Positions 40,717-52,488 of a stretch of 64,000 nucleotides of DNA are shown piece after piece. Location of the stretch: contig NZ_JAKLWS010000013.1 in assembly GCF_022012475.1 (NCBI RefSeq), positions 1 through 64,000 on the forward strand. The letters run 5' to 3'. The position numbers and the translations under genes were made by a program. How positions within the stretch are numbered: position 1 is the first letter of the stretch; the number at the start of each line of letters is the position of its first letter. Below the pieces are notes generated by a model that saw nothing but the letters and a program-made list of their open reading frames with translations, ran no database searches and was not told the origin of the DNA. This DNA comes from Rhodohalobacter sulfatireducens. GTDB lineage: Bacteria; Bacteroidota; Rhodothermia; Balneolales; Balneolaceae.

Positions 40717-41205
40717 ATGGCTAAAAAACCACATCCAAGTATTGCATCCCACACCGCCACAATGAAAGAGAAAAAACGAATCGGGCTTGTTGCTCACGAT
40801 TATCGAAAACGAGATCTGATCGACTGGGTCGATTACAATAGCGGCACTCTGAAAGACCACGAGCTTTACGGAACCGGAACAACGGGCGGTTTAATTGAGG
40901 AGAAATTGGGCCTCAAAGTCCACCGCTTTATGAGCGGCCCGCTGGGCGGTGACCTTCAGCTCGGCGCCACAATTGCCGATGGCGATCTGGATATTCTGAT
41001 CTTCTTCTGGGATCCGCTCCAGGCGCAACCCCACGATGTGGACGTGAAAGCCCTGCTCAGAATCTGTATCGTTTACAACATTCCGCTTGCGTGCAACCGG
41101 TCATCTGCCGACTTCCTGATCTCCTCCGAACTGCTGGATAAACCATATGAACGTTTTCTTGTGGATTATGGGGAAAGGTTAAGGAATTTGAAGGTGGAGG
41201 AGTGA
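40717..41205 (+). CDS. mgsA: Methylglyoxal synthase (first copy)
   Basis: A 162-residue enzyme converting dihydroxyacetone phosphate to methylglyoxal and phosphate. KRIGLVAHDYRKRDLIDWV, YGTGTTGGLIEEKLGLKV (phosphate site), SGPLGGDLQLGATIADGDLD (catalytic Asp) and FFWDPLQAQPHDVDVKALLR are characteristic. The start at 40717 adds about 19 residues compared with an internal Met (MKEKKRIGL) that would give the usual length. A copy differing at only three residues from KKPHPSIAS onward lies at 50.4 kb. Confidence 0.95.
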   Translation: MAKKPHPSIASHTATMKEKKRIGLVAHDYRKRDLIDWVDYNSGTLKDHELYGTGTTGGLIEEKLGLKVHRFMSGPLGGDLQLGATIADGDLDILIFFWDPLQAQPHDVDVKALLRICIVYNIPLACNRSSADFLISSELLDKPYERFLVDYGERLRNLKVEE

Positions 41206-41358
41206 GTTGGGTTGTAAGATGCAAGATGCCGGGTACTTGCAATTCTAACCTCGCCGTTTGTTAAGATTATAATTTTAGATGTAGGATACAGTATGGATAT
41301 TCTCGCGTTCTTTCAATGGCATTGAATGGAGGTTAGCCTCCAAAATTTGGACTACGTA

Positions 41359-41503
41359 TTGATGAATTCGTATCAGACTTTTTTTGCCTGATTACTTCAC
41401 TTATAGTTGACCACCCTGACGCAATTGCTCATTTTATTCGGCCAGCATATTCTCTTATGTATGCTCGGTAAAACCCCGTTTTTCGGTGGTAACGAGTTTG
41501 GCG
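41359..41503 (-). pseudogene. Decayed parE-parD junction
   Basis: This stretch aligns with the intact parE/parD junction at about 51175-51335: shared blocks include GTATTGATG-ATTCG-ATCAGA, TTTTGCCTGATT, ACTTATAG-TG-CCA and GCGGATCCATTC. Substitutions and gaps have destroyed both reading frames. It follows the first mgsA just as the intact toxin-antitoxin genes follow the second copy. Confidence 0.65.
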
Positions 41504-41511
41504 CGGATCCA

Positions 41512-41620
41512 TTCAATATCTTCCAGAGATTGGTATCTCTCCTGAGTTATCTCATCCTTTATTTTATCACGTATCTCTTTTGTTTTCGCCCGAAAGATGA
41601 GTTTACCCTTATTAATAATG
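41512..41620 (-). pseudogene. Fragment of the 3' end of the ABC ATPase gene
   Basis: ATCTTCCAGAGATTGGTATC and CTCATCCTTTATTTT, and the following 60 bases, match the region 47250-47355 that encodes the C-terminus of the island's ABC ATPase (QERYQSLEEIFIDV). The fragment is fused directly to the decayed parDE sequence, so it marks a recombination junction. It has no start and no complete domain. Confidence 0.6.
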
Positions 41621-41630
41621 AGTACAAAAA

Positions 41631-41813
41631 TTAATTTGTGCCTGTATTATTTTTGTACTGGCGATAGTAATTGTAGGCAAGAAGAGCAAAAAAAAGAAAG
41701 GAAAATAAATATGTATAAAAACCTATATCAAACATAAAATATAATAGGTTAACTACTACTATTGAAATAGTACTAACTACAGTTATAAATAAATAAATGT
41801 TTTTTCTTTTCAT
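41631..41813 (-). CDS. Small two-helix membrane protein, possible immunity protein
   Basis: A 60-residue protein: MKRKNIYLFITVVSTISIVV starts the first helix, a short loop follows, then a second helix (YLFSFLFFALLAYNYY) and a basic tail (RQYKNNTGTN). It is not in a recognised family. Its size, two-helix topology and place at the end of the export island resemble bacteriocin immunity proteins. That function is an inference; the short length also leaves a chance that it is not a gene. Confidence 0.45.
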   Translation of the reverse strand: MKRKNIYLFITVVSTISIVVVNLLYFMFDIGFYTYLFSFLFFALLAYNYYRQYKNNTGTN

Positions 41814-42018
41814 ATATCTATCTAAAGTCTAATTATCATTTTAAATGCCTGTAACGGGTTTTTTTTACCTGATTACATAACTTATGTTTAACTCTTCTGT
41901 CACAATGACGTCCCTCAATTTTTGTGAAAAAAATACATATGGAACAAAATTTTAAAAACAATAAATGATACATACGAGACTGACCTTCCCAAACCTTATC
42001 GTTCCAGCTTCATTTTTT

Positions 42019-42213
42019 TCACCCGTTGTTCTTCGTTGTATCTATGTAGAAAAAAACCACAAGGACTGCCGAAATTGCTGCAACAAAAACAAACAACTAA
42101 ATCACGCCTTTTGGCTCAAGGAGTTCAAAACTATAAAAAATCAAAGCACAAAAGTTCAAGAGACAGATGATAGAGGCCCAGGGAAAGATTCGTCGTTTTG
42201 TATTGTGAATCAC
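42019..42213 (-). pseudogene. Small membrane protein interrupted by TAG (left copy)
   Basis: From GTG 42213 the - strand reads IHNTKRRIFPWASIICLLN, then CALIFYSFELLEPKGVI, reaches TAG at 42097-42099, and continues in the same frame LFVFVAAISAVLVVFFYID to TGA at 42019-42021. The two hydrophobic segments align with those encoded at 51588-51780. The pair is a duplicated two-helix protein of about 63 residues just behind the exporter gene. Its function is unknown; immunity is possible. Confidence 0.55.
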
Positions 42214-42334
42214 TTTGGGATTGTTTGGATAATATGAATGCAAACTCGTTTTCTGAGTATTCAATAAGTAGTTAGAGAAGAGGCTACAGTTACAAATAGA
42301 AGTGTATATCAAAAAAAGATACTATAATAGTTAG

Positions 42335-44524
42335 TTATGTGTACTCGGTTATATATCTATACCCTCTTGCATAGTAGTTATCATTGGATATCAAATTTTC
42401 ATGGGTTCCAGAATCATGAATTGAGCCATTTTGAAGGATATAAATCTTATCTGTTTGTTTGGCAAGACTGATTCGATGAGTAACCAAGAGCAATCCAATT
42501 TGATTCTTTTTTGCATATCCTTTTAAGATGTTAAGTACTTCCCTTTCTGTATCAAAGTCTATTGCCGAAGTCGATTCATCCAACATAAGAAATGAAGGTT
42601 CTTTATACAGGGCTCTGGCTATAGTAACTAATTGCTTTTGTCCTCCTGAAAGATGTTGTCCGTCTTCACCACAAATGGTAAGATATCCTTGAGGAAGATT
42701 ATCAAGATAAGTGCCAAGACCTGTTTTTTTCAAAAACTGTACGCATCTTTCCGGTTCATTAGGGTCATTACTCAGACAAATATTATCCAACACAGTCGTA
42801 TTAAAAATTTTTTCGGACTGTGATACAACCCCTAATGCTGAGCGCCATTCAGTTATATCCCATTTGCTTATTTTTCGACCGTTAAGTTTAATGTATCCTT
42901 GTTCGGGTTGATAAAAACCCTGCATGATATCCACAAGGGTACTTTTCCCGCTTCCTACCTTACCAAACAATGTCACTGCTTCTCCCGTTGTTAACCTGAA
43001 TTGTATGTTTTTTAAAAGCGGACTTCGGCCTGGAAAACGAAACACCAGGTTCTCTATAGAAAGAACTTCTTTAGATTTCGTTTGAACCATCAAACCATTT
43101 GGGGATTCTGGGTTATACTCTTTCTCCAACGATGAAATTTCAAACAGACGGTTAAATGCGACTTTAGCTTCCTGAATTTGGATGTTTGCAACCATCAAGC
43201 CGGCAAGGGAGGGAATTATAGATCCAGCCATCGTTAGTATGGCCATGAGTTCTCCAAGCAACAGCTTTTCCTGCATTACATAATAAACACCTAAACTGAA
43301 AAAAAGTGAAATGAAAATTGCCACTAATAGTTGTGTAATAAATCCATATTTATTGCCCAATATGGCAAGATCGTATCCTTTAGTTTGATAAATGTCGTAG
43401 ACAGAGTGGATCCGGTCTTTAAAGATTTCTTCTTTATTAAATGATTTTATACTTGAAATACCGGAAATCGAATCAATATACTGTGTTTCGTTCCCCGAAT
43501 GAGCCGCCATCACTTCTTTTTGATTATCAAGAATTTTTGGATGGTAATACCAGGCCGCCAGGAAAAAAAAGAGCATGCTTGATACAGACAACAATCCTAA
43601 TTCGACTGACAATATAAATATGTAAATCGATGAGACGATAACTACCAACAGATTGATAAGGATGTCACCCGTGATTAAGGCAACTGTATTTTTTATCCGC
43701 ATCGAGTCGTTCATTCTGGCTATGAGATCGCCAGTGCTGTATCCTTTAAAATATGTCATCGGGAGGTATATAATTTTTTCAATAAAAGACTTCACTACTC
43801 GAACATTTAAATCTTTACCTTGTCGAGCCATAAAAATACCTCTTATGTAACTGATAAAAGCTTTTGCAATGAGCAGGATTGCCAATGCAAGAGTACCAAT
43901 AAATATTTTCTCTGTTTCATTGTTAGGTAGGAAGTCATCGATCAATTTTTGTGTAAAAACAGCCATTGACAACCCCAGTATTGCTATCACTATTCCCATT
44001 ACACCCGCTATGGTCAAGATCGGAATGTCATCACGGATTAATGACTTGAACCATTTGAACTGGCTTTGAGAAGTACTTTTAGCGGTTTTGAATGTTTTGC
44101 CTGGTGATAAACTAAGGAGTGTCTTAGATTGCCATATCGCCAGCAACTCATCTTCACTATATTCAACAATACCCCATCCCGGATCACCGATAACAAATTT
44201 GCCATCTTCAAACCCATAGTTCACGACAAAGTGTTCCCTTTTTTCATCCTGTATTACATGGAGGATGACGGGATGGTTCAAATCTTTCAGGTTCTCCATA
44301 TCCGCTTCATAGCCGGTTGCATCAAAACCAATTTGTTCGGCTGCCTGATAGAGTCCCAGTAGTGAAGTTCCGTTTAAGGTCGTGCCGCTAATCTCCCTGA
44401 GCCGCTCCTGTGAAACGTGACCGCCATAGTATTTTGTCAACGCGCTTAAACACGCCAGTCCGCATGCATATTCCCCTAACTGCTGAACATGAATTTTCTT
44501 TAAATCTTTTTTAGTGTATTTCAT
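42335..44524 (-). CDS. Peptidase C39-ABC exporter of double-glycine peptides
   Basis: A 729-residue exporter that cuts a leader after Gly-Gly and pumps the peptide out. The C39 domain (1-140) has IHVQQLGEYACGLACLSAL with Gln15 and catalytic Cys21, His98 in EHFVVNYG, and Asp114 in GDPGWG. The ABC membrane domain (about 165-450) has six helices. The nucleotide-binding domain has LFGKVGSGKSTLVD, LSGGQKQLVTIARAL and FLMLDESTSAID. Its start overlaps the glycosyltransferase end by 14 bases. Part of its 3' end is repeated at 51.9 kb. The likely cargo is the peptide at 49.5 kb. Confidence 0.95.
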   Translation of the reverse strand: MKYTKKDLKKIHVQQLGEYACGLACLSALTKYYGGHVSQERLREISGTTLNGTSLLGLYQAAEQIGFDATGYEADMENLKDLNHPVILHVIQDEKREHFVVNYGFEDGKFVIGDPGWGIVEYSEDELLAIWQSKTLLSLSPGKTFKTAKSTSQSQFKWFKSLIRDDIPILTIAGVMGIVIAILGLSMAVFTQKLIDDFLPNNETEKIFIGTLALAILLIAKAFISYIRGIFMARQGKDLNVRVVKSFIEKIIYLPMTYFKGYSTGDLIARMNDSMRIKNTVALITGDILINLLVVIVSSIYIFILSVELGLLSVSSMLFFFLAAWYYHPKILDNQKEVMAAHSGNETQYIDSISGISSIKSFNKEEIFKDRIHSVYDIYQTKGYDLAILGNKYGFITQLLVAIFISLFFSLGVYYVMQEKLLLGELMAILTMAGSIIPSLAGLMVANIQIQEAKVAFNRLFEISSLEKEYNPESPNGLMVQTKSKEVLSIENLVFRFPGRSPLLKNIQFRLTTGEAVTLFGKVGSGKSTLVDIMQGFYQPEQGYIKLNGRKISKWDITEWRSALGVVSQSEKIFNTTVLDNICLSNDPNEPERCVQFLKKTGLGTYLDNLPQGYLTICGEDGQHLSGGQKQLVTIARALYKEPSFLMLDESTSAIDFDTEREVLNILKGYAKKNQIGLLLVTHRISLAKQTDKIYILQNGSIHDSGTHENLISNDNYYARGYRYITEYT

Positions 44525-45917
44525 AATGCGCTTTCAAGTTGCCTGTTCTCTTGCCAGTTAGTTGAAATATTAGTTCAAGAATTTTCTTTTCTTCTGTACG
44601 ATTCGACTCTCTAATCTTTTGTTTCATCCTGCGAAGCGATCTTCTGAACCGTTCCATCCCATCTAAAACAGATCCAATCTTCCGGGAAACAGATCGCGGC
44701 GAAGCCGTTCTAATATTCCCGGTTACCCCAAGATTGTGAAATGCAACCCTGGCACCATTTCCCGGTTGATCTGCTTTTTTATTCATTGGATAGACAATCA
44801 TTGGAACTTCGGCATCAATACACTCTCTGATGGAATTCAGGCCTCCGGCAGTGATCATGATATCCACATTCTCTAACAACTGTTTTTGCGGAACCAATGA
44901 AAATATCCTCAGGTTTTCCGGCGTATCTGACAAATCATTAATATCAAAATGCTCACCGATTGAGAGAATAAATTCAATAGCGGGATGATTTTTTGCTGTT
45001 ATGATGATTTTTCTGAAAAATTTCCTACATATTTTTTCCCGGATCTGAGTTAAAGTTCCCAGAGAACAGTAAATCAACATTTTGTCTTGCCCAAGGTTTT
45101 TCTGTTCTTGAACTTTTTTTAATAAATCAAGCAGGCGCCTGTCTTCAATTTTCTCAAATGAACTATTCTCGTGCTTTCCAAAATAGAACACCTCTGTATT
45201 CATCATGGATCGGGGAAAGTCAAACGCCTTCGGTGAGGTAGAAATCATAGGCAGTTCGCGAATCCCTACTCCAAAACAGCGTTCTTTTTGAATGGTGAGT
45301 TCCGAATCAGGACAAAGACTCCGGAGAACGCTAAGATCTGTTTGACCAAGAGTCAGTACATTATTTTTTAGTTTCTTGAGTGTCCGGCCAACCATGTTTT
45401 TTTTCCAAAGCCATTCTGTAAAACTGTGAGATAGCTTATTATTCGTGGGAATATGTTTTGATTGAAATGGAGGCACTCCCTTTGATTTTAAAGGAGGAAG
45501 CATTGTTTGAACTGCTATGATCGGAATTTGATACTTAGAATAATAGAATGCTTTCTGAGCATAGTGATCATCAAGCAGAATCAAATCGGGCTTTACAGAA
45601 TCTATCATCCGATCATAATCTGATGCCGTTTTCTTGAATTTTTTTTGGATTCTCTTGAATCTTGAACCACCAATGTTCTCCATTATAAATTTTAAGCGGC
45701 CTTTTTCCTCAATTTCAATTCTTGCGGTAGTAAATAAAAATGATGGTATGATATAGTAATCAAATCCTTCGTTTCTAATTATATTCCTGAAATTCTGGAG
45801 TCCTGAAAACCAGATATGCCCCCCCCGGGGAGCGAGGAACCGTGCAAGTGTAATACATGCATTTATATGCCCCGTTGCCGGAAATGGGTCAATCAGTATG
45901 GTACTTTTAACGTTCAT
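44511..45917 (-). CDS. GT1-like glycosyltransferase
   Basis: A 468-residue GT-B fold enzyme. The N-terminal half begins with DPFPATGHINACITLARFLA, like UGT/MGT-type transferases. The donor half has MLIYCSLGTLTQI, RIFSLVPQKQLLENVDIMIT and AGGLNSIRECIDAEVPMIVY followed by PMNKKADQPGNGARV, the nucleotide-sugar binding block of family GT1. ATG 45917 is chosen because the fold starts there and lies 10 bases after the previous stop; the frame is open to 46004. Its place within a peptide export operon suggests it may glycosylate the exported peptide. The acceptor is unproven. Confidence 0.85.
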   Translation of the reverse strand: MNVKSTILIDPFPATGHINACITLARFLAPRGGHIWFSGLQNFRNIIRNEGFDYYIIPSFLFTTARIEIEEKGRLKFIMENIGGSRFKRIQKKFKKTASDYDRMIDSVKPDLILLDDHYAQKAFYYSKYQIPIIAVQTMLPPLKSKGVPPFQSKHIPTNNKLSHSFTEWLWKKNMVGRTLKKLKNNVLTLGQTDLSVLRSLCPDSELTIQKERCFGVGIRELPMISTSPKAFDFPRSMMNTEVFYFGKHENSSFEKIEDRRLLDLLKKVQEQKNLGQDKMLIYCSLGTLTQIREKICRKFFRKIIITAKNHPAIEFILSIGEHFDINDLSDTPENLRIFSLVPQKQLLENVDIMITAGGLNSIRECIDAEVPMIVYPMNKKADQPGNGARVAFHNLGVTGNIRTASPRSVSRKIGSVLDGMERFRRSLRRMKQKIRESNRTEEKKILELIFQLTGKRTGNLKAHYEIH

Positions 45918-45927
45918 GAACTCCTTC

Positions 45928-46452
45928 TCAATTATCTTTTCGAATCGTAGAAAAGAGAAGTTCAGCCTTTGTTTCCCCCCTGAATAACTGAACCAATTCT
46001 CCATCCCCGTTATATAAATAAGTAGAAGGAACGCCCATTATCCCGTAGAATTCCTTTACTCTCTTCTTTACATCTCTCAAAAAAATGAACTCTGTATTCT
46101 CAATAATCTTTAAATCATTTCTAAACTTTTCAATCTCTTTTCGGCTTTCATCTGAGATAAGAATTATTTCAGCGCTTCTTTGAAGTTGAGTGTGTTTTGA
46201 AATATCTGTGATTTCATTTCTGCAATACTCGCACGCCGTATTGAAATAAGTAAACAGAATGGGACCGTCCGAATAAAATTCAAGAGTGGATACTGGCTCT
46301 CCTTCAAGTGTTTCCACCTCCAGATCAGGCCAGTTGGAAATTTTTTCTATTCTGTTTTCACGTTCAAGAAGTTGGTTGGCAATCAAAACCCCCAATAGTA
46401 AAATAGCTGTAACAACCCCGCCAACGATCCATTTTAAAACTGTTTTTTTCAT
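45928..46452 (-). CDS. Membrane-anchored thioredoxin-like protein
   Basis: A 174-residue protein from ATG 46452, where a membrane anchor begins (VLKWIVGGVVTAILLLGVLI). The extracytoplasmic thioredoxin-like domain has PILFTYFNTACEYCRNEITD with Cys74 and Cys77 (CEYC) and the cis-Pro loop IMGVPSTYLYN. It may form or reduce a disulfide; the predicted peptide has exactly two cysteines. The longer frame to 46563 overlaps the upstream gene and is unlikely. Gene gaps of 2 and 10 bases place it in the operon. Confidence 0.85.
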   Translation of the reverse strand: MKKTVLKWIVGGVVTAILLLGVLIANQLLERENRIEKISNWPDLEVETLEGEPVSTLEFYSDGPILFTYFNTACEYCRNEITDISKHTQLQRSAEIILISDESRKEIEKFRNDLKIIENTEFIFLRDVKKRVKEFYGIMGVPSTYLYNGDGELVQLFRGETKAELLFSTIRKDN

Positions 46453-46454
46453 GG

Positions 46455-47141
46455 TTAGCTGATTTGAAGGGTTAAAAAAGTGACGAGAACCAACCACAGA
46501 AGTAACCCGGTTCCATAAGAAGGCAGTACAATGTTGAGGCTCTCGATGAAGTTGGGCTTCCACTGCCTGGACAGAAGCCAGGAGATAATCAAAATGTAGA
46601 AAACTTCGAATAGGTTGAGAGTTTGAAGCGGATAATGAAGCCAGAGGACTACGTTTTCTACACCATAAATACTGATTACAGATAATGGGAAGTAATTCAA
46701 TGATTTTTCAATAGTTAAAGCATCCAGATGCCGAGACAGATTGATGAGATACAATATCTGGGCGAGAATGAAAACAACCTCAGCCAACAAGACTGCTTTA
46801 AAAAAAGTTTTAAACTTAATCTCAAGAGAAGAAAGAACAGTACCTATAGTTATACAAAGAGCAGGAAAGGATATTTTTAAAAATAGAGTAACAGGTATAA
46901 ATACATAGTTTAACCAACCGTAACGCTCACGCATATTTAATACCGCTTCAATAGTTTGATCAGAAAAACTGCGAATATATACTTCATCTCCCAGAATAAA
47001 TTGATCCGATATGTAGGCCAACACCAAATAGATTGCGGTTATACTTACAAAAAGCACTGAAATTGGAATATTATCATAAGCGTAGCTGTCTGTCTCATAA
47101 TCAGGCTGGAAGTCTTTTTTCATGAATATTTTGAAAATCAT
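46455..47141 (-). CDS. Multipass membrane protein, Yip1-like topology
   Basis: A 228-residue protein with five to six hydrophobic helices (e.g. IPISVLFVSITAIYLVLAYI, GTGLLLWLVLVTFLTLQIS). No catalytic motif is seen. Its general pattern resembles Yip1-domain membrane proteins often found in Bacteroidota peptide clusters, but the family call is uncertain. It sits between the ABC ATPase and the thioredoxin-like gene, and its stop is 2 bases from the thioredoxin start. ATG 47141 or 47123 may be used. Confidence 0.7.
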   Translation of the reverse strand: MIFKIFMKKDFQPDYETDSYAYDNIPISVLFVSITAIYLVLAYISDQFILGDEVYIRSFSDQTIEAVLNMRERYGWLNYVFIPVTLFLKISFPALCITIGTVLSSLEIKFKTFFKAVLLAEVVFILAQILYLINLSRHLDALTIEKSLNYFPLSVISIYGVENVVLWLHYPLQTLNLFEVFYILIISWLLSRQWKPNFIESLNIVLPSYGTGLLLWLVLVTFLTLQIS

Positions 47142-47191
47142 ACGTGTTGTACCTCTATTTAAAACTAATTAGCCGAATATGACTTAAACAC

Positions 47192-47974
47192 TCATAACCA
47201 CGACAAACTTGAAGCGGGTTTATCGTCTTCATCTGAAACAACATCAATAAATATCTCTTCCAGGGATTGGTATCGTTCCTGACTTACCTCATCCTTTATT
47301 TTGATACGGATCTCCTCTGTTTTGGTCTGAAAGACAAGCTTTCCCTTGTGAATAATAGCTACCTCATCACAAAATTTTTCTACCGTGTCAAGATTATGTG
47401 AACTTAAAACCACGGTAACGCCTCTGTCCGCCATCAAACGTAATGTATCTTTAATCTGTTTGGCCGAAGTCGGGTCAATTCCTTCCAAAGGTTCATCCAA
47501 AATAAGCAGTTTGGGTTGATGAATAAGTGCTGCCGCCAACGACACTTTTTTCTTCATACCATTCGAATAGGTTTCAATTTGTGATGTTGCACGCCCTTTG
47601 AGATCAAAAAAGGTAAGCAATTCATTTACTCGTTCCTTAATATCGGTCGACTTTAACTCATAAAGTGCTCCACAAAAATGAAGGTATTCGGTTGCTGTTA
47701 GTTTTTCCAGGTAATGAGGATCTTCAAGAACAAATCCAATATCTTTTTTATGTATATAATCATCATGTTCTATTGTTTTCCCGAAAATTTTTGCAATTCC
47801 CTCGGACCTTTTCACAACTCCCGCCAGGATATTTATAATCGTCGATTTCCCAGCACCATTTGGTCCCAATAAACCGAAAACAGTGGAGTGTGGAATTGTC
47901 ATTGACACACCATCCAATGCAACATGGTTGCCCATATACACTTTTTTTAGATCAACCAGTTCAATTATGCTCAT
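47192..47974 (-). CDS. ABC transporter ATPase subunit
   Basis: A 260-residue ATPase with GLLGPNGAGKSTIINILAG (Walker A), YSNGMKKKVSLAAALIHQPK (signature) and LLILDEPLEGIDPTSAKQI (Walker B), ending in a C-terminal region typical of ABC-2 type drug or lantibiotic-immunity ATPases. It overlaps the upstream permease gene by 4 bases, so it probably forms a complex with the two membrane proteins. LanFEG-like self-protection is the favoured inference. Part of its 3' end is copied at 41.5 kb. Confidence 0.93.
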   Translation of the reverse strand: MSIIELVDLKKVYMGNHVALDGVSMTIPHSTVFGLLGPNGAGKSTIINILAGVVKRSEGIAKIFGKTIEHDDYIHKKDIGFVLEDPHYLEKLTATEYLHFCGALYELKSTDIKERVNELLTFFDLKGRATSQIETYSNGMKKKVSLAAALIHQPKLLILDEPLEGIDPTSAKQIKDTLRLMADRGVTVVLSSHNLDTVEKFCDEVAIIHKGKLVFQTKTEEIRIKIKDEVSQERYQSLEEIFIDVVSDEDDKPASSLSWL

Positions 47975-48624
47975 CTTTCTATCAGATTACAATGTTGAAT
48001 GTTAAATTTCTTAATTACCGTCGGCAACACATAAGAATACCACAATCCAAAAGTCGTAATAGAGAATAAGAGGCAGAAGAGCAAGCTGTCAAACCATAGG
48101 TAAAATAAAACATAAGGTATGGTAGCAAAGGGAATCGTTAAGAACATCAAGAGATAGAGCGAAGCATTATTCTCCACAGTTGGTTCCCCTCTTGGAATGA
48201 TACTGATCCTAGTACCCAAGATCATAAACACCGGTATTGATGTAACTAACAAAAGAACCGCACCCTTATATTCTCCTAAGGTGTTCTCAAAGAAAAAAGA
48301 ACTTCCAAACAACAAGAGTGACGGGACAGTAATCATAACGAGTATCCAAACGATGCATTTGGAAAAGAATATTGCACGGATACTCCAGGGAGCCAGACAA
48401 TAATTTATAAACTCCCTTTTTCCGCTGAACACATCTCCGAGAGTAGGTCCTAAAAAGCTGCACCCGAACACAATTACCAATGGTATATTAAAAAATTGTT
48501 GATGTTTATAGATAATTGAAAGCAACATCCCAACAGCTAAACCTATGCCTGTGAGCATAAAAAGCAGACTCATATAACGAATCATTATACTGAACTGGGT
48601 TTTGATATGAATCCACATTACCAC
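47971..48624 (-). CDS. ABC-2 type permease subunit
   Basis: A 217-residue protein with six hydrophobic segments (e.g. MSLLFMLTGIGLAVGMLLSI, LFYLWFDSLLFCLLFSIT). It contains no enzymatic motif. It ends inside the start of the ATPase gene and begins 11 bases after the other permease, so the three form one transporter. The role is inferred from position. Confidence 0.78.
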   Translation of the reverse strand: MVMWIHIKTQFSIMIRYMSLLFMLTGIGLAVGMLLSIIYKHQQFFNIPLVIVFGCSFLGPTLGDVFSGKREFINYCLAPWSIRAIFFSKCIVWILVMITVPSLLLFGSSFFFENTLGEYKGAVLLLVTSIPVFMILGTRISIIPRGEPTVENNASLYLLMFLTIPFATIPYVLFYLWFDSLLFCLLFSITTFGLWYSYVLPTVIKKFNIQHCNLIER

Positions 48625-48635
48625 GGAATTTTTTT

Positions 48636-49367
48636 TTAATGATTAGAAGACGACCATGCCAGAAGTGCCAGAACAGAAGCTAAACTAACAAATAAATAAA
48701 TTATATTAGTCCAAACAATCTGTATATCGTGCATTAATAACCCGAAAAGCCCGTTTCCCACAAAGCTTATAATCGGGAGCTTCGTAAAAATAAACTCTGA
48801 TTCGGTTAAGACTGCCACGAGTATAATACCGATGAATATAAAACCGAGGTTCGTAATATTTTTTCGGTAACGGTATAGCCACTTTCCGGCCACCCAATGA
48901 ATAGCAAGGGTAAAAGCAATAAGATTAGCCCAAAGTAAAATCCAAAAAAATGGGCTAAAAGCCGCTGCTATGTACAGAGAGTGAAATACAAAAAAAAGTG
49001 AACTCACAAGGATGACCGTCGCAAACGTAAATGATTTAATATCTAATACAAGCAAAAGTGAATGAAATTTCAAAAATTTCCATCGGCTTATCGGAAACAC
49101 CCTCAAATGTCTCGGTTCAATCAACGCCTTACTCTGAAATTTCAACAGAGTAGCTAATACGTCGGTCATTACAAGTAGGTATGCCAACAGATTGAAAACG
49201 ATACGCGTCTCTTTCGGACTTCTTTCCGCTACCAAATTCAATGAACCTCCTAAACCGACAAAGAAGAGACAGCTCCCCGCAATCCAAATACTATAGAACC
49301 ACTCACTTTGCCGGATCCGACTGATGAGCTTTTCGTTTGTTTGGTAGAGAATTTTCAGGATTTTCAA
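48636..49367 (-). CDS. ABC-type permease subunit
   Basis: A 243-residue protein with six to seven hydrophobic segments (VFNLLAYLLVMTDVLATLL, ITNLGFIFIGIILVAVLT) and a basic cytoplasmic N-terminus. RHLRVFPISRWKFLKFHSL resembles the coupling region of exporter-type permeases. It follows the terminator after the peptide gene and opens the transporter run 48636-42335. The exact transporter family is uncertain. Confidence 0.75.
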   Translation of the reverse strand: MKILKILYQTNEKLISRIRQSEWFYSIWIAGSCLFFVGLGGSLNLVAERSPKETRIVFNLLAYLLVMTDVLATLLKFQSKALIEPRHLRVFPISRWKFLKFHSLLLVLDIKSFTFATVILVSSLFFVFHSLYIAAAFSPFFWILLWANLIAFTLAIHWVAGKWLYRYRKNITNLGFIFIGIILVAVLTESEFIFTKLPIISFVGNGLFGLLMHDIQIVWTNIIYLFVSLASVLALLAWSSSNH

Positions 49368-49398
49368 AAAATCTTTTTTGAGTATTTATACTTATCTT

Positions 49399-49451
49399 AA
49401 AAAAAAAATGATGGTTACCATGTAAGTAATTTATTTCTACATGGTAACCAT
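49399..49451 (-). terminator. Strong terminator behind the precursor-peptide gene
   Basis: A perfect 14-bp inverted repeat, ATGGTTACCATGTA (49411-49424) and TACATGGTAACCAT (49438-49451), has a 13-base loop. On the - strand it is followed by a run of ten T residues (49399-49408). It begins 7 bases after the peptide stop and lies before the ABC permease, so most transcripts of the peptide should end here. Confidence 0.88.
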
Positions 49452-49458
49452 ACATTCC

Positions 49459-49656
49459 TTACAGGCATTCATATCCTATAGCTAGACCAGCGCCATATCC
49501 GCCTGCAGCAAATCCGATAGCAACCCCCCAGCCGACAGGTCCTGAAAGCGCCGCGACACCACCTAAGAGAGCAATAGTAGCAGCGTGCGCTCCTAAGCAA
49601 CCAATTAAATCTCCACCTTCTATCTGTTCCATTTTTTCTAAACTTAAAGTTCTCAT
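49459..49656 (-). CDS. Double-glycine leader bacteriocin-like precursor peptide
   Basis: A 65-residue peptide. ATG 49656 is fixed by an exact Shine-Dalgarno sequence AAGGAGG at 49663-49669. The leader MRTLSLEKMEQIEGG fits the double-glycine leader pattern (LSxEE...IxGG) cut by C39 exporters. The predicted core is 50 residues, starting DLIGCLGAHAATIALLGG and ending GLAIGYECL. It is Gly/Ala-rich and hydrophobic, with only two cysteines (core positions 5 and 49) that could bridge its ends. The frame is open upstream to 49746, but that lies before the ribosome site. No database match is claimed. Confidence 0.85.
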   Translation of the reverse strand: MRTLSLEKMEQIEGGDLIGCLGAHAATIALLGGVAALSGPVGWGVAIGFAAGGYGAGLAIGYECL

Positions 49657-49758
49657 ATCAATCCTCCTTATTTGGTTAATGTTTAGACCACCCACCAAAT
49701 CTTTTGATGAATGCTTACAAACAAAAAAATTATTGCTATTCACCATAGCAAGTAAAAC

Positions 49759-50265
49759 CTATCCCCAATTTCGGTTTTTTTCTCGCCAATTCAGGTATTC
49801 ATAGAAGCCAAACAGTTTTTTCCATTCTAACCAAGTAAAACTTACATCAGGCTCTTCAGTCAAAAGATACTCTCTTAATTCGCTGAATGTAGTGTTGTAA
49901 TGTCTACTCAAGAACTTATACAAAGCATCACTTGTTTCACCTACACCCGATTCAAAAGCTACTGTTAAACTGGTTACCTCAGCTCCGTTTTTTATGATTA
50001 GGAACACGATGATCTCGAAGCGCACTTCTCGTAAAATAATTTTGGGTGGTTTGTCATATGTAGTCTTCATCTCCTTCTTTAACCAACTCTGTGACACATT
50101 TGCTGCTTTTGCCCATTCTTTCACATACCGAATCGATTCTATTTCATGAATTAAAATCCGAACCACTTTTTCAGCTTTGTTTCCATTCTTTCTATTCATA
50201 CTTTTAAAATATTTCTCGCTTCTGTATTTATTCTCTTCATGCATAGTATTCTGTTCTTGTTGCAC
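49759..50265 (-). CDS. AraC-like DNA-binding regulator
   Basis: Up to 168 residues. The C-terminal part has two helix-turn-helix units of the AraC type: SIRYVKEWAKAANVSQSWLK (first) and AVAFESGVGETSDALYKFL-like VTSLTVAFESGVGETSDALY, then RHYNTTFSELREYLL (second). There is no obvious ligand-binding domain. The first ATG 50265, or later ones at 50244 and 50199, may be the start. It lies directly upstream of the peptide gene in the same direction and is a good candidate for its regulator. Confidence 0.68.
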   Translation of the reverse strand: MQQEQNTMHEENKYRSEKYFKSMNRKNGNKAEKVVRILIHEIESIRYVKEWAKAANVSQSWLKKEMKTTYDKPPKIILREVRFEIIVFLIIKNGAEVTSLTVAFESGVGETSDALYKFLSRHYNTTFSELREYLLTEEPDVSFTWLEWKKLFGFYEYLNWREKNRNWG

Positions 50266-50389
50266 CTATACTCTACTCTGTATGAACCGGAATTTTCAAA
50301 TTCCTTACATTTTTTTCAGAAAACCTATCATTTTTCCAAAAAAATCCAGTAAAAAACCTCATCCAAGTATTGCATCCCACACCGCTACA

Positions 50390-50833
50390 ATGAAAGAGAA
50401 AAAACGAATCGGGCTGGTGGCCCACGATTACCGAAAACGAGATCTGATCGACTGGGTTGATTACAATAGCGGCACTCTGAAAGACCACAAGCTCTACGGA
50501 ACCGGAACAACCGGTGGTTTAATTGAGGAAAAATTGGGCCTCAAAGTCTACCGCTTTATGAGCGGACCGCTGGGCGGTGATCTTCAGCTCGGCGCCACAA
50601 TTGCCGATGGCGATCTGGATATCCTGATCTTTTTCTGGGATCCGCTCCAGGCGCAACCCCACGATGTGGACGTAAAAGCCCTGCTCAGAATCTGTATCGT
50701 TTACAATATTCCGCTTGCGTGCAACCGGTCATCTGCCGACTTCCTGATCTCCTCCGAACTGCTGGATAAACCCTATGAGCGTTTTCTTGTGGATTATGGG
50801 GAAAGGTTAAGGAATTTGAAGACTGAGGAGTGA
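50390..50833 (+). CDS. mgsA: Methylglyoxal synthase (second copy)
   Basis: A 147-residue enzyme with all the motifs of the first copy (GTGTTGGLIEEKLG, SGPLGGDLQLGATIADGD, DPLQAQPHDVDVKALLR). It differs from it at three residues only: E/K in KDHxLYG, H/Y in KVxRFM and V/T in LKxEE. The ATG of the first copy is absent here, so ATG 50390 (MKEKKRIGL) is chosen; it gives the normal family length. A longer frame from 50177 exists but starts inside the divergent regulator. pilB-type genes follow downstream after parDE. Confidence 0.88.
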   Translation: MKEKKRIGLVAHDYRKRDLIDWVDYNSGTLKDHKLYGTGTTGGLIEEKLGLKVYRFMSGPLGGDLQLGATIADGDLDILIFFWDPLQAQPHDVDVKALLRICIVYNIPLACNRSSADFLISSELLDKPYERFLVDYGERLRNLKTEE

Positions 50834-50947: not shown

Positions 50948-51232
50948 CTAAATTTGATTCATATCCTGGCGACCGATTATTGCCATGATCTCGACGGTTT
51001 CATTTTTTACCCGGTAATAAATACCATCCACCCCGCAAACACACCGTCGATATCCTTCACGGATATAATCGACTTTCGGGTAACGGTCAGGATAGCGGGA
51101 AATGATCTCAAACTGCTCAAAAAAATCAAGCAGGTATCTATCCGCCTGCTCTTCTCCAAAATTTCGAACTCCGTATTGATGGATTCGAATCAGATCTTCT
51201 TTTGCCTGATTGCTTAACTTATAGCTGGCCAT
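50948..51232 (-). CDS. parE: ParE/RelE-family toxin
   Basis: A 94-residue toxin of the ParE group. YKLSNQAKEDLIRIHQYGVR, NFGEEQADRYLLDFFEQFE and GYRRCVCGVDGIYYRVKNET are the standard helices and strands. ParE toxins poison DNA gyrase. ATG 51232 is chosen because it begins the fold (MASYKLSN) and overlaps the antitoxin end by 14 bases, the usual coupling. The frame is open to 51274. A decayed relative lies at 41.4 kb. Confidence 0.92.
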   Translation of the reverse strand: MASYKLSNQAKEDLIRIHQYGVRNFGEEQADRYLLDFFEQFEIISRYPDRYPKVDYIREGYRRCVCGVDGIYYRVKNETVEIMAIIGRQDMNQI

Positions 51233-51470
51233 CCCGGCGTAATTGCTGCTTCGATTCGGCCAGGATTTCATCACGGGTTTCTCCGGTGAATCCCCCCCTC
51301 TCTGCAGCGATTAGTTTAGAGCGGATCCATTCTACCTCTTCCTCCCGGTTCCGTGCTCTTCGAACCAAATCGTTAACAAGCTCACTTTTACTTTTATACT
51401 CCATCTTGTCAACCTGGGCCTTTAACCACTCATCGTTAGGTTTGGTAAATGTTATACTTTGTCTTGTCAT
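51219..51470 (-). CDS. parD: ParD-family antitoxin
   Basis: An 83-residue antitoxin with a ribbon-helix-helix N-terminus (RQSITFTKPNDEWLKAQVDK, KSKSELVNDLVRRARNREEE) and a flexible acidic C-terminus that would wrap the toxin. ATG 51470 is favoured by a strong AGGAGGAG ribosome site just upstream (51474-51481). It precedes parE and overlaps it by 14 bases. It is probably autoregulated, as in this family. Confidence 0.92.
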   Translation of the reverse strand: MTRQSITFTKPNDEWLKAQVDKMEYKSKSELVNDLVRRARNREEEVEWIRSKLIAAERGGFTGETRDEILAESKQQLRRDGQL

Positions 51471-51587
51471 TACTCCTCCTCTATTTTGATGCAAAAATAC
51501 ACCAAACCTGCATCATGGACAAGATTAATAACAAAAACTGACCCATCCATGCCCAATCTCTAATCTATTCTAATTCCGGTTTTATCT

Positions 51588-51780: not shown

Positions 51781-51924
51781 GATGATGTCATTGTATTGTG
51801 TGATCTCCTTTTCTTAATTAATCGAAATTTTCGAAATCCTTACAGTTTTTCCGGGATTATAATCACTCTGATGATAAAGTGAATGTAATTTGGGTAAAGT
51901 CATGCCTGTTTTGGTAGTCAGCCT

Positions 51925-52079
51925 TTAACCGCGTACATAATAGTTCTCATTGGATATCAATTCGTCAAGACTCCCGGAATCACGAATGGAGCTATTTTCA
52001 AGGATATAAATCTTATCTGTTTGTTTGGCAAGACTGATTCGATGAGTAACAAAGAGCAATCCAATTTGATTCTTTTTTG
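51925..52079 (-). pseudogene. 3' remnant of a second C39-ABC exporter gene
   Basis: The - strand encodes KKNQIGLLFVTHRISLAKQ, TDKIYILENSSIRDSGS and LDELISNENYYVRG, then TAA at 51925-51927. This matches the last 50 residues of the intact exporter at 42335-44524 with only a few changes, and about 80 bases of DNA (roughly 51996-52079) are nearly identical. The homology stops abruptly at 52079, so the rest of this exporter copy is deleted. Confidence 0.8.
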
Positions 52080-52488
52080 CCCGTTAAGTTTCCGGCATCA
52101 TCGTCCCAAAATCTTCCTGACTCATCTGTTCTCGGCACGAATTACGTACATCTTTACTGAAAATAAATCCAGCCTCAATACCACCTATGTCGTCACCAAA
52201 CAATTATGCTTTTTTAGAAACCTTATGTCTTATACACGCTATGGGCCTAATATTTTCAGGTAGCTATCGTTTCGTAATTCAAGACACAGCGGACGAAATA
52301 AACAACCGCCAGATCTGGAATATTCTTCTATCCAACGAGATCCGTCTTTTGCAGCTCTTACCCCGGGTTTGACAAGTAGAATGCACCGGTATAAATTGGT
52401 ATTAAAAACGTCTATATTGGGTTTAATTATTTATTAGCTATATTTAATTATCTACATGCTATGCTCTAATCTTTATATTTCGTGATTC
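52080..52488. other. Gap between the exporter remnant and the pilB-type gene
   Basis: This stretch lies between the sharp end of the exporter homology and the TTG start of the pilus ATPase gene. A + strand frame runs through 52263 but shows no recognisable family and begins within the exporter remnant, so it is not called. The last 100 bases are AT-rich and probably contain the promoter of the pilus genes. Nothing else is recognised. Confidence 0.5.

Follow-up and report, generated by a model that had tools for sequence, protein, structure and literature searches.

Bacteroidetocins are class IIf bacteriocins whose regions encode, in the accessible text of Coyne et al. (2019, PMC6671954), a protein with five transmembrane (TM) spans, a small peptide, a thiol oxidoreductase and a C39 ATP-binding cassette (ABC) transporter. 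According to the same text, the peptide has a 15-residue double-glycine leader and at least two cysteines, toxin activity weakens when the gene for the peptide, the TM protein or the oxidoreductase is lost, E. coli needs no more than the four genes, neither accessory gene protects, and no immunity gene was found in these regions. Few glycosylated ribosomal peptides are known: the consulted part of a 2021 paper (PMC8068269) names the glycocins, NAI-112 and cacaoidin, and the glycocins thermoglycocin, orniglycocin, sublancin and glycocin F are described in the accessible sections of PMC12457901. Here we analyse a 64,000-nucleotide stretch of Rhodohalobacter sulfatireducens (contig NZ_JAKLWS010000013.1, positions 1 to 64,000; hereafter the window), in which a bacteroidetocin-type operon also carries a GT1-type glycosyltransferase (GT) tied to its C39 exporter. 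The operon type is already known; the GT is an addition to it.

The minus-strand run spans positions 42335-50265 and comprises, in transcription order, an AraC-like regulator, the precursor peptide, two permeases, an ATPase, a multipass membrane protein (MEMB), a thioredoxin, the GT and the C39 exporter. The genes that the initial annotation had listed on this strand between 41631 and 50265 are all present, with trimmed starts. Exporter, GT, thioredoxin and ATPase and, weakly, regulator and precursor have Pfam or NCBIfam matches that agree with their names; MEMB and the two permeases have none. The 14-base overlap that it reported between the last two genes is exact: the GT (44511..45917, minus strand) has its stop at 44511, while the exporter (42335..44524, minus strand; PF03412, PF00664 and PF00005, and exporter trees) begins with the ATG at 44524. 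Four parts are common to the window and the bacteroidetocins: a TM protein, a thiol oxidoreductase, a C39 exporter and a peptide that has a 15-residue double-glycine leader and two cysteines or more. MEMB (46455..47141, minus strand; alignments A3 and A6) is likened by description to the TM protein of those regions, having about five spans, which were read off an AlphaFold model (predicted local distance difference test, pLDDT, 89.5) rather than from a TM predictor. The oxidoreductase counterpart is a membrane-anchored CxxC thioredoxin (45928..46452, minus strand; AhpC-TSA, 1.8e-12) whose CxxC motif is invariant in 9/9 aligned sequences. The trio of five-TM protein, thiol oxidoreductase and C39 exporter is therefore found, as a match by described features and not by the sequences of the published proteins. 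By its testable structural features the host operon belongs to the bacteroidetocin type (class IIf-like) and has a GT added, a kinship that the initial annotation had missed. The published four-gene region differs in lacking a GT ("glycosyl" has no match in the accessible text of PMC6671954), a regulator and a second ABC set, all three of which the window has, and bacteroidetocins A and B have four cysteines according to that text, whereas the window core is rich in Gly and Ala and has two.

The precursor (49459..49656, minus strand; 65 residues; Bacteriocin_IIc E 0.01, below cut-off) had been listed as an open reading frame (ORF) that is too long. Its start is most likely the ATG at 49656, as judged from an AGGAGG six bases ahead of it and from homologues. 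From there it encodes the 15-residue double-glycine leader MRTLSLEKMEQIEGG followed by a Gly/Ala-rich core of 50 residues, which contains neither Lys nor Arg, has its cysteines at positions 5 and 49 and reaches a grand average of hydropathy of 1.26. These values lie within the bacteroidetocin-type ranges (a leader of 15-16 residues ending in Gly-Gly, a core of 35-50 residues and at least two cysteines), and against the class IIc bacteriocin model PF10439 the precursor scored 16.3 bits, under the Pfam cut-off of 27.1 bits. Among 19 predicted peptides at MEMB loci, 18 have two or four cysteines and the third L043 peptide has one; further peptides at L169 and L175 have three, one and none. Even counts are usual at MEMB loci and no strict rule. 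Paired cysteines occur in GT-free relatives too, so a disulfide is more likely than their use as a GT target, and S-glycosylation of Cys5 and Cys49 was ranked low for this reason.

SunS-like glycocin glycosyltransferases belong to GT2, and GTs of the YjiC or OleD type act on small molecules. The window GT is of the latter family, as seen from UDPGT, TIGR01426 and EryCIII-like matches, its PDB neighbours and the tree described below. Its Pfam matches up to an E-value of 1 are UDPGT, EryCIII-like and GT28 only, with no Glycos_transf_2, and the search against PDB up to E 0.01 returned 38 sequences, the nearest of them UDP-glycosyltransferases and OleD-type enzymes and none named SunS. It shares with macrolide and UDP-glucosyl GTs such as YjiC and OleD the family and, save for one replaced residue, the inspected positions of the C-terminal motif; unlike them, it sits in a peptide-export operon. 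In the donor-site motif HGGxNSxxEC...P...DQPGN the inspected positions are kept, except that the His, which we take to contact the donor diphosphate, is replaced by Ala386.

Glycocin clusters and the window alike bring together a precursor, a glycosyltransferase, a C39 exporter and thioredoxin-like proteins, as far as the accessible sections of PMC12457901 describe them. In contrast to the glycocins, the window GT matches UDP-glucosyl and macrolide GTs (judged by family models and PDB names, not by an alignment with SunS), and the core has only two cysteines, which it shares with GT-free relatives. Membership among the glycocins was therefore rejected on GT family and cysteine pattern. NAI-112 and cacaoidin resemble the proposed product as ribosomal peptides bearing a sugar, which we infer in the case of the window; PMC8068269 describes lanthipeptide-type cores for both and assigns the GTs of cacaoidin to GT-2 and GT-4. 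A C39-linked GT1 enzyme was not described in the open-licence literature that was searched. Published clusters that include fragilis and P. distasonis strains have glycosyltransferases in two of nine cases; the accessible text does not name their GT family, and they may overlap with the present GT group.

A scan of the named genomes gave 67 GT loci, and for 14 of them the sequence covered includes a C39 domain. The patterns used for it were derived from alignment A2, whose four non-window rows all lie in C39 or double-glycine contexts, so that the 67 loci are biased toward such contexts; many lie on short contigs, and the C39 counts are lower bounds. A phylum search with the window GT alone, in which the L011 stretch was not extended, gave eight other places in seven other genomes, four with C39 within ~10 kb, and no GT relatives were found in viral contigs. 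The GT tree, a quick one built with no bootstraps, has 46 rows, one for the window and the others for 45 loci out of the 67. It leaves out a fragment (L097) and, by eye, 21 weak, partial or near-duplicate loci (L075, L079, L082, L088, L092, L095, L098, L100-L106 and L108-L114); L097 alone among the omitted rows has a C39 match, and the fusions L065, L077 and L094 were trimmed to their C-terminal 480-520 residues. Six GTs that lie directly ahead of a C39 gene, and that had been grouped by this context before the tree was built, form one side of a single branch (Shimodaira-Hasegawa-like approximate likelihood ratio test, SH-aLRT, 94; 0/500 shuffles as clustered). They come from the window, two Bacteroidetes metagenome-assembled genomes (L048 and L049), a Bacteroidales (L050), a Bacteroidia (L051) and Parabacteroides (L066, the same place as L013), and the distances from GT stop to C39 start in the six loci are -14, -17, +11, -11, +33 and -1 bases. 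The sister group has eight rows (SH-aLRT 93), six with C39 nearby; five show convincing Cys-rich double-glycine peptides, L059 and L068 have neither C39 nor such peptides, and L014/L089 is a grasp-with-spasm graspetide locus above the NCBI cut-off. Within the stretch read, up to ~10 kb on each side, a C39 domain accompanies 6/6 GTs of the first group, 6/8 of the sister group and 2/32 other rows (L057 and L096). Double-glycine ORFs matching a regular expression occur near 3/5, 6/9 and 1/31 GTs, or 2/5, 5/9 and 0/31 once the matches in L066, L068 and L086, which look spurious by eye, are removed; L064 and L069 are near-copies, and the expression missed the L051 peptide. The expected recurrence of the GT beside double-glycine peptides and C39 exporters thus holds for the nearest relatives, with the same overlap or a short gap, while distant ones lie mostly elsewhere. 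This recurrence supports the idea of a modified-peptide system.

The exporter and MEMB have separate histories. The window exporter groups with the GT-linked exporters of L048, L050 and L051 (SH-aLRT 99), away from GT-free exporters of its own family, and forcing it among the latter was rejected by the approximately unbiased (AU) test (p-AU 5e-13). The exporter tree has 24 rows and excludes the L049 fragment, the split L151/L152 exporters, L064, L069, L096, L097 and the MEMB loci with 1.5-kb flanks; the 16-row AU tree was also made without L013, L158, L047, L014, L015, L016, L053 and L060. MEMB, in turn, sits with its own family (support 95) and is 60% identical to that of L040 and 33% to that of L050. 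With the exporter in the GT-linked group and MEMB in its own family, GT and exporter look co-inherited. On the simplest reading of these trees, which the long branch of the window exporter leaves strong and not certain, a resident cassette would have had its own exporter exchanged for a GT-exporter pair from another Bacteroidota line. The GC content of GT and exporter (0.38-0.39) is unremarkable against the rest of the operon (0.36-0.39 for the other genes, 0.48 for the precursor).

The cassette without a GT is found in relatives. An exporter search in 77 genomes of the family, its own included, returned five others 42-44% identical, the next best being near 30%. These five loci (L040-L044, one of them from the same genus) have MEMB, thioredoxin and exporter in the window's order, their MEMB being 48-58% identical to that of the window by tblastn, and no GT was seen in the stretches read. 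Double-glycine precursors occur in four of them; the L044 stretch starts at a contig end, and its thioredoxin is split over two frames. The MEMB family is phylum-wide, its profile matching 27/394 genomes of the phylum and 16/393 genomes of Parabacteroides' order. Sixteen MEMB loci were read out further (the window, L040-L044, L050 and L150-L158): 15 have a C39 match, 14 a thioredoxin and two, the window and L050, a GT. At 20 MEMB places in Parabacteroides' order, with ~1.5-kb flanks, we counted 16 thioredoxins, ten C39 matches and no GT. Antisense or off-target peptides matched by the regular expression (L040:3143 and L151:2056) were left out of the counts. L050 lacks the ABC set and has its precursor, MEMB, thioredoxin, GT and exporter arranged as in the window.

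As for MEMB itself, Yip1 matched weakly in 4/27 members, and a Foldseek comparison with PDB gave a best E of 1.4 among 28 matches; the model used was derived from 27 sequences, an earlier one from seven having been poor (pLDDT 59). A disulfide-relay role of the DsbB/VKOR type was weighed: one cysteine is invariant in 7/7 close homologues, and there is no VKOR match.

From the gene content, the GT-C39 recurrence and the separate histories of exporter and MEMB, which are all direct observations, we infer every biochemical step of the following scheme. The precursor would be made with its 15-residue leader, and the cytosolic GT would add sugar to the core, most likely at Thr12, Ser23 or a tyrosine, much as in glycocins. 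Next, the product of the overlapping gene, the C39 exporter, would cleave after Gly-Gly and export the core, again by analogy with glycocins. The membrane-anchored thioredoxin, with the help of the multipass protein, would subsequently close a Cys5-Cys49 disulfide, and the DrrA-type ABC transporter may protect the producer. The choice of acceptor follows from L048 and L051, where GT and exporter are present, the precursors have one and no cysteine, respectively, and no MEMB or thioredoxin match was found in the sequence read (16.0 kb out of 22.3 kb for the former, a whole 10.8-kb contig for the latter); this suggests that cysteines are associated with the thioredoxin rather than with the GT, and therefore that Ser, Thr or Tyr are likelier acceptors. 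We put the probability that peptide glycosylation is the function of the operon at roughly one half. The "glycosylated-bacteriocin" system of the initial annotation thus survives as a modified-peptide idea favoured by recurrence, but not as a known glycocin, given the different GT family and the GT-independent cysteines. Somewhat more tentatively, bacteroidetocin-type peptides may be sugared by a GT1 that moves together with a C39 exporter of its own, the pair forming an exchangeable module, and sister GT1s may decorate graspetide-type and Cys-rich double-glycine peptides across the phylum; this would make a second, independent kind of glycosylated bacteriocin. If so, the GT1 group that recurs next to double-glycine peptides in the Gram-negative Bacteroidota would bring a further enzyme family into peptide glycosylation and hint at how bacteriocins as hydrophobic as these stay in solution or reach their targets. 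With its GT-exporter module, the otherwise ordinary cassette also offers a natural experiment, related peptides occurring with and without a GT.

A number of observations pull in the other direction. The support of the six-GT branch, 94, is just under the tool's mark of 95, the window GT and exporter sit on long branches, and the group used in the AU test was picked after the first exporter tree had been seen. The C39 protein of L013 (389 residues, no ABC match) falls far outside the GT-linked exporters. No acceptor residue is conserved among the precursors of GT-linked loci, which vary widely; a precursor was not found in L049, and none in L066 is convincing. The L050 peptide (143-334) resembles that of the GT-free L043 (15713-15928) at 27/40 core positions by hand count, and this peptide type therefore does not need a GT. 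The GT-linked operon is also rare. In 128 genomes of the window's own order it is present only in the window, and the 8.8-kb contig that carries the one other GT at E <1e-30 (in G049) shows no C39 match; the 393 genomes of Parabacteroides' order hold two GTs at E <1e-60, one of them broken, and one GT-linked operon. Finally, the window GT is alone among 47 in having Ala at the His of HGG, and many distant homologues lie, by eye, beside genes resembling those for nonribosomal peptide synthetases (NRPS) or other genes.

The alternative that survives best, although we consider it unlikely, is that the GT spares the peptide and glycosylates a lipid, an envelope glycan or a target protein instead, thereby shielding the producer or changing its surface in step with export. 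In its favour, the GT is associated with the exporter gene more closely than with any type of peptide, its weak matches include, far under the cut-off, macrolide GTs of self-immunity such as OleI, and the absence of an immunity gene noted by Coyne et al. in the accessible text of PMC6671954 would leave room for such a function. Peptide tailoring, however, fits better with sister GTs that lie beside differently matured peptides (grasp-with-spasm, and Cys-rich with VKOR), and a DrrA-type ABC transporter is present in the window anyway. It is slightly less probable still that the window GT is decaying or inactive and that the operon makes an unmodified, disulfide-bonded, bacteroidetocin-like peptide, as Ala386 in place of a His kept in 42/47 sequences, the location inside a decayed tandem duplication and the similar peptides of GT-free relatives would allow; yet the GT gene has an uninterrupted frame from start to stop, retains the other inspected motif positions and still overlaps the exporter gene. 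An unrelated small-molecule substrate, with the GT placed here by chance, is very improbable: for all the distant homologues beside NRPS-like and other genes, all six members of the group lie directly next to a C39 gene, and four of the six come together again in the exporter tree.

Ahead of MEMB, the operon encodes the regulator (49759..50265, minus strand; Pfam HTH_18 E 2.9e-5, below cut-off), which has homologues of 29-32% identity near the cassette in L040, L041 and L043, and a second ABC set. Its two ABC-2-like permeases (48636..49367 and 47971..48624, minus strand) matched no Pfam or NCBIfam family and are named from their position beside the DrrA-like ATPase (47192..47974, minus strand). 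The latter matches TIGR01188 with 227 bits and a lantibiotic-protection model at 4e-50, both below cut-off, is 58% identical to its counterpart in the same-genus L044, and possibly has a self-protection role. Alignment with relatives makes starts at 45917 for the GT and at 46452 for the thioredoxin more likely, and with these revised starts the two ORFs probably do not overlap. Downstream of the exporter, a hydrophobic ORF of 60 residues (41631..41813, minus strand; no Pfam or NCBIfam family match) may not be a gene. The reported absence of lanthipeptide, lasso, radical-SAM and YcaO biosynthetic enzymes holds among the listed Pfam and NCBIfam matches of ten operon-region proteins (the best 25 NCBIfam matches for two ABC proteins), the outer window genes being unscanned.

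Elsewhere in the material, the same genome has a second bacteriocin-like locus (L046, G000:C105:185000-204900) with an HlyD-like protein (by eye), a C39 exporter 28% identical to that of the window and a double-glycine peptide; similar loci, with exporters at about 30%, recur in the family. VKOR-thioredoxin fusions lie beside a GT and Cys-rich double-glycine peptides at L016:10288-11967 and L015:10635-11786, the L016 fusion also having a C39 domain. In Lunatimonas (L055 and L058), short signal-like Cys-containing peptides, seen by eye, lie beside a GT1 gene, and the L058 peptide matched no Pfam or NCBIfam model.

The flanks of the operon are repeated. Two copies of mgsA (MGS-like domain, PF02142) lie on the plus strand at 40717..41205 and 50350..50833, 94.5% identical to each other; the second has lost its original ATG, and another start could serve. 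To the right, a parE-parD toxin-antitoxin pair has open frames (50948..51494, minus strand; PF05016 and PF03693), and a decayed parDE remnant on the left (41338..41524, minus strand) is 74% identical to 51154-51342. Each mgsA is followed by parDE and then by a C39 3' end, the C39 gene being whole in the left unit only and represented in the right one by a 158-base remnant (51923..52080, minus strand) 87% identical to 42357-42514. What had been described as an island between two mgsA copies therefore reads as the scar of a tandem duplication of ~9.6 kb, whose second unit would have kept almost nothing of the operon; this duplication was preferred over the arrival of the entire block as a mobile island. 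Left of the exporter, 104 bases (41516-41619) share 80% identity with a 3' section of the ATPase gene (47253-47356), and further rearrangements therefore occurred. In the same-genus L044, an mgsA-like gene (by eye) lies ~12 kb from the cassette, and mgsA may be an old neighbour of it.

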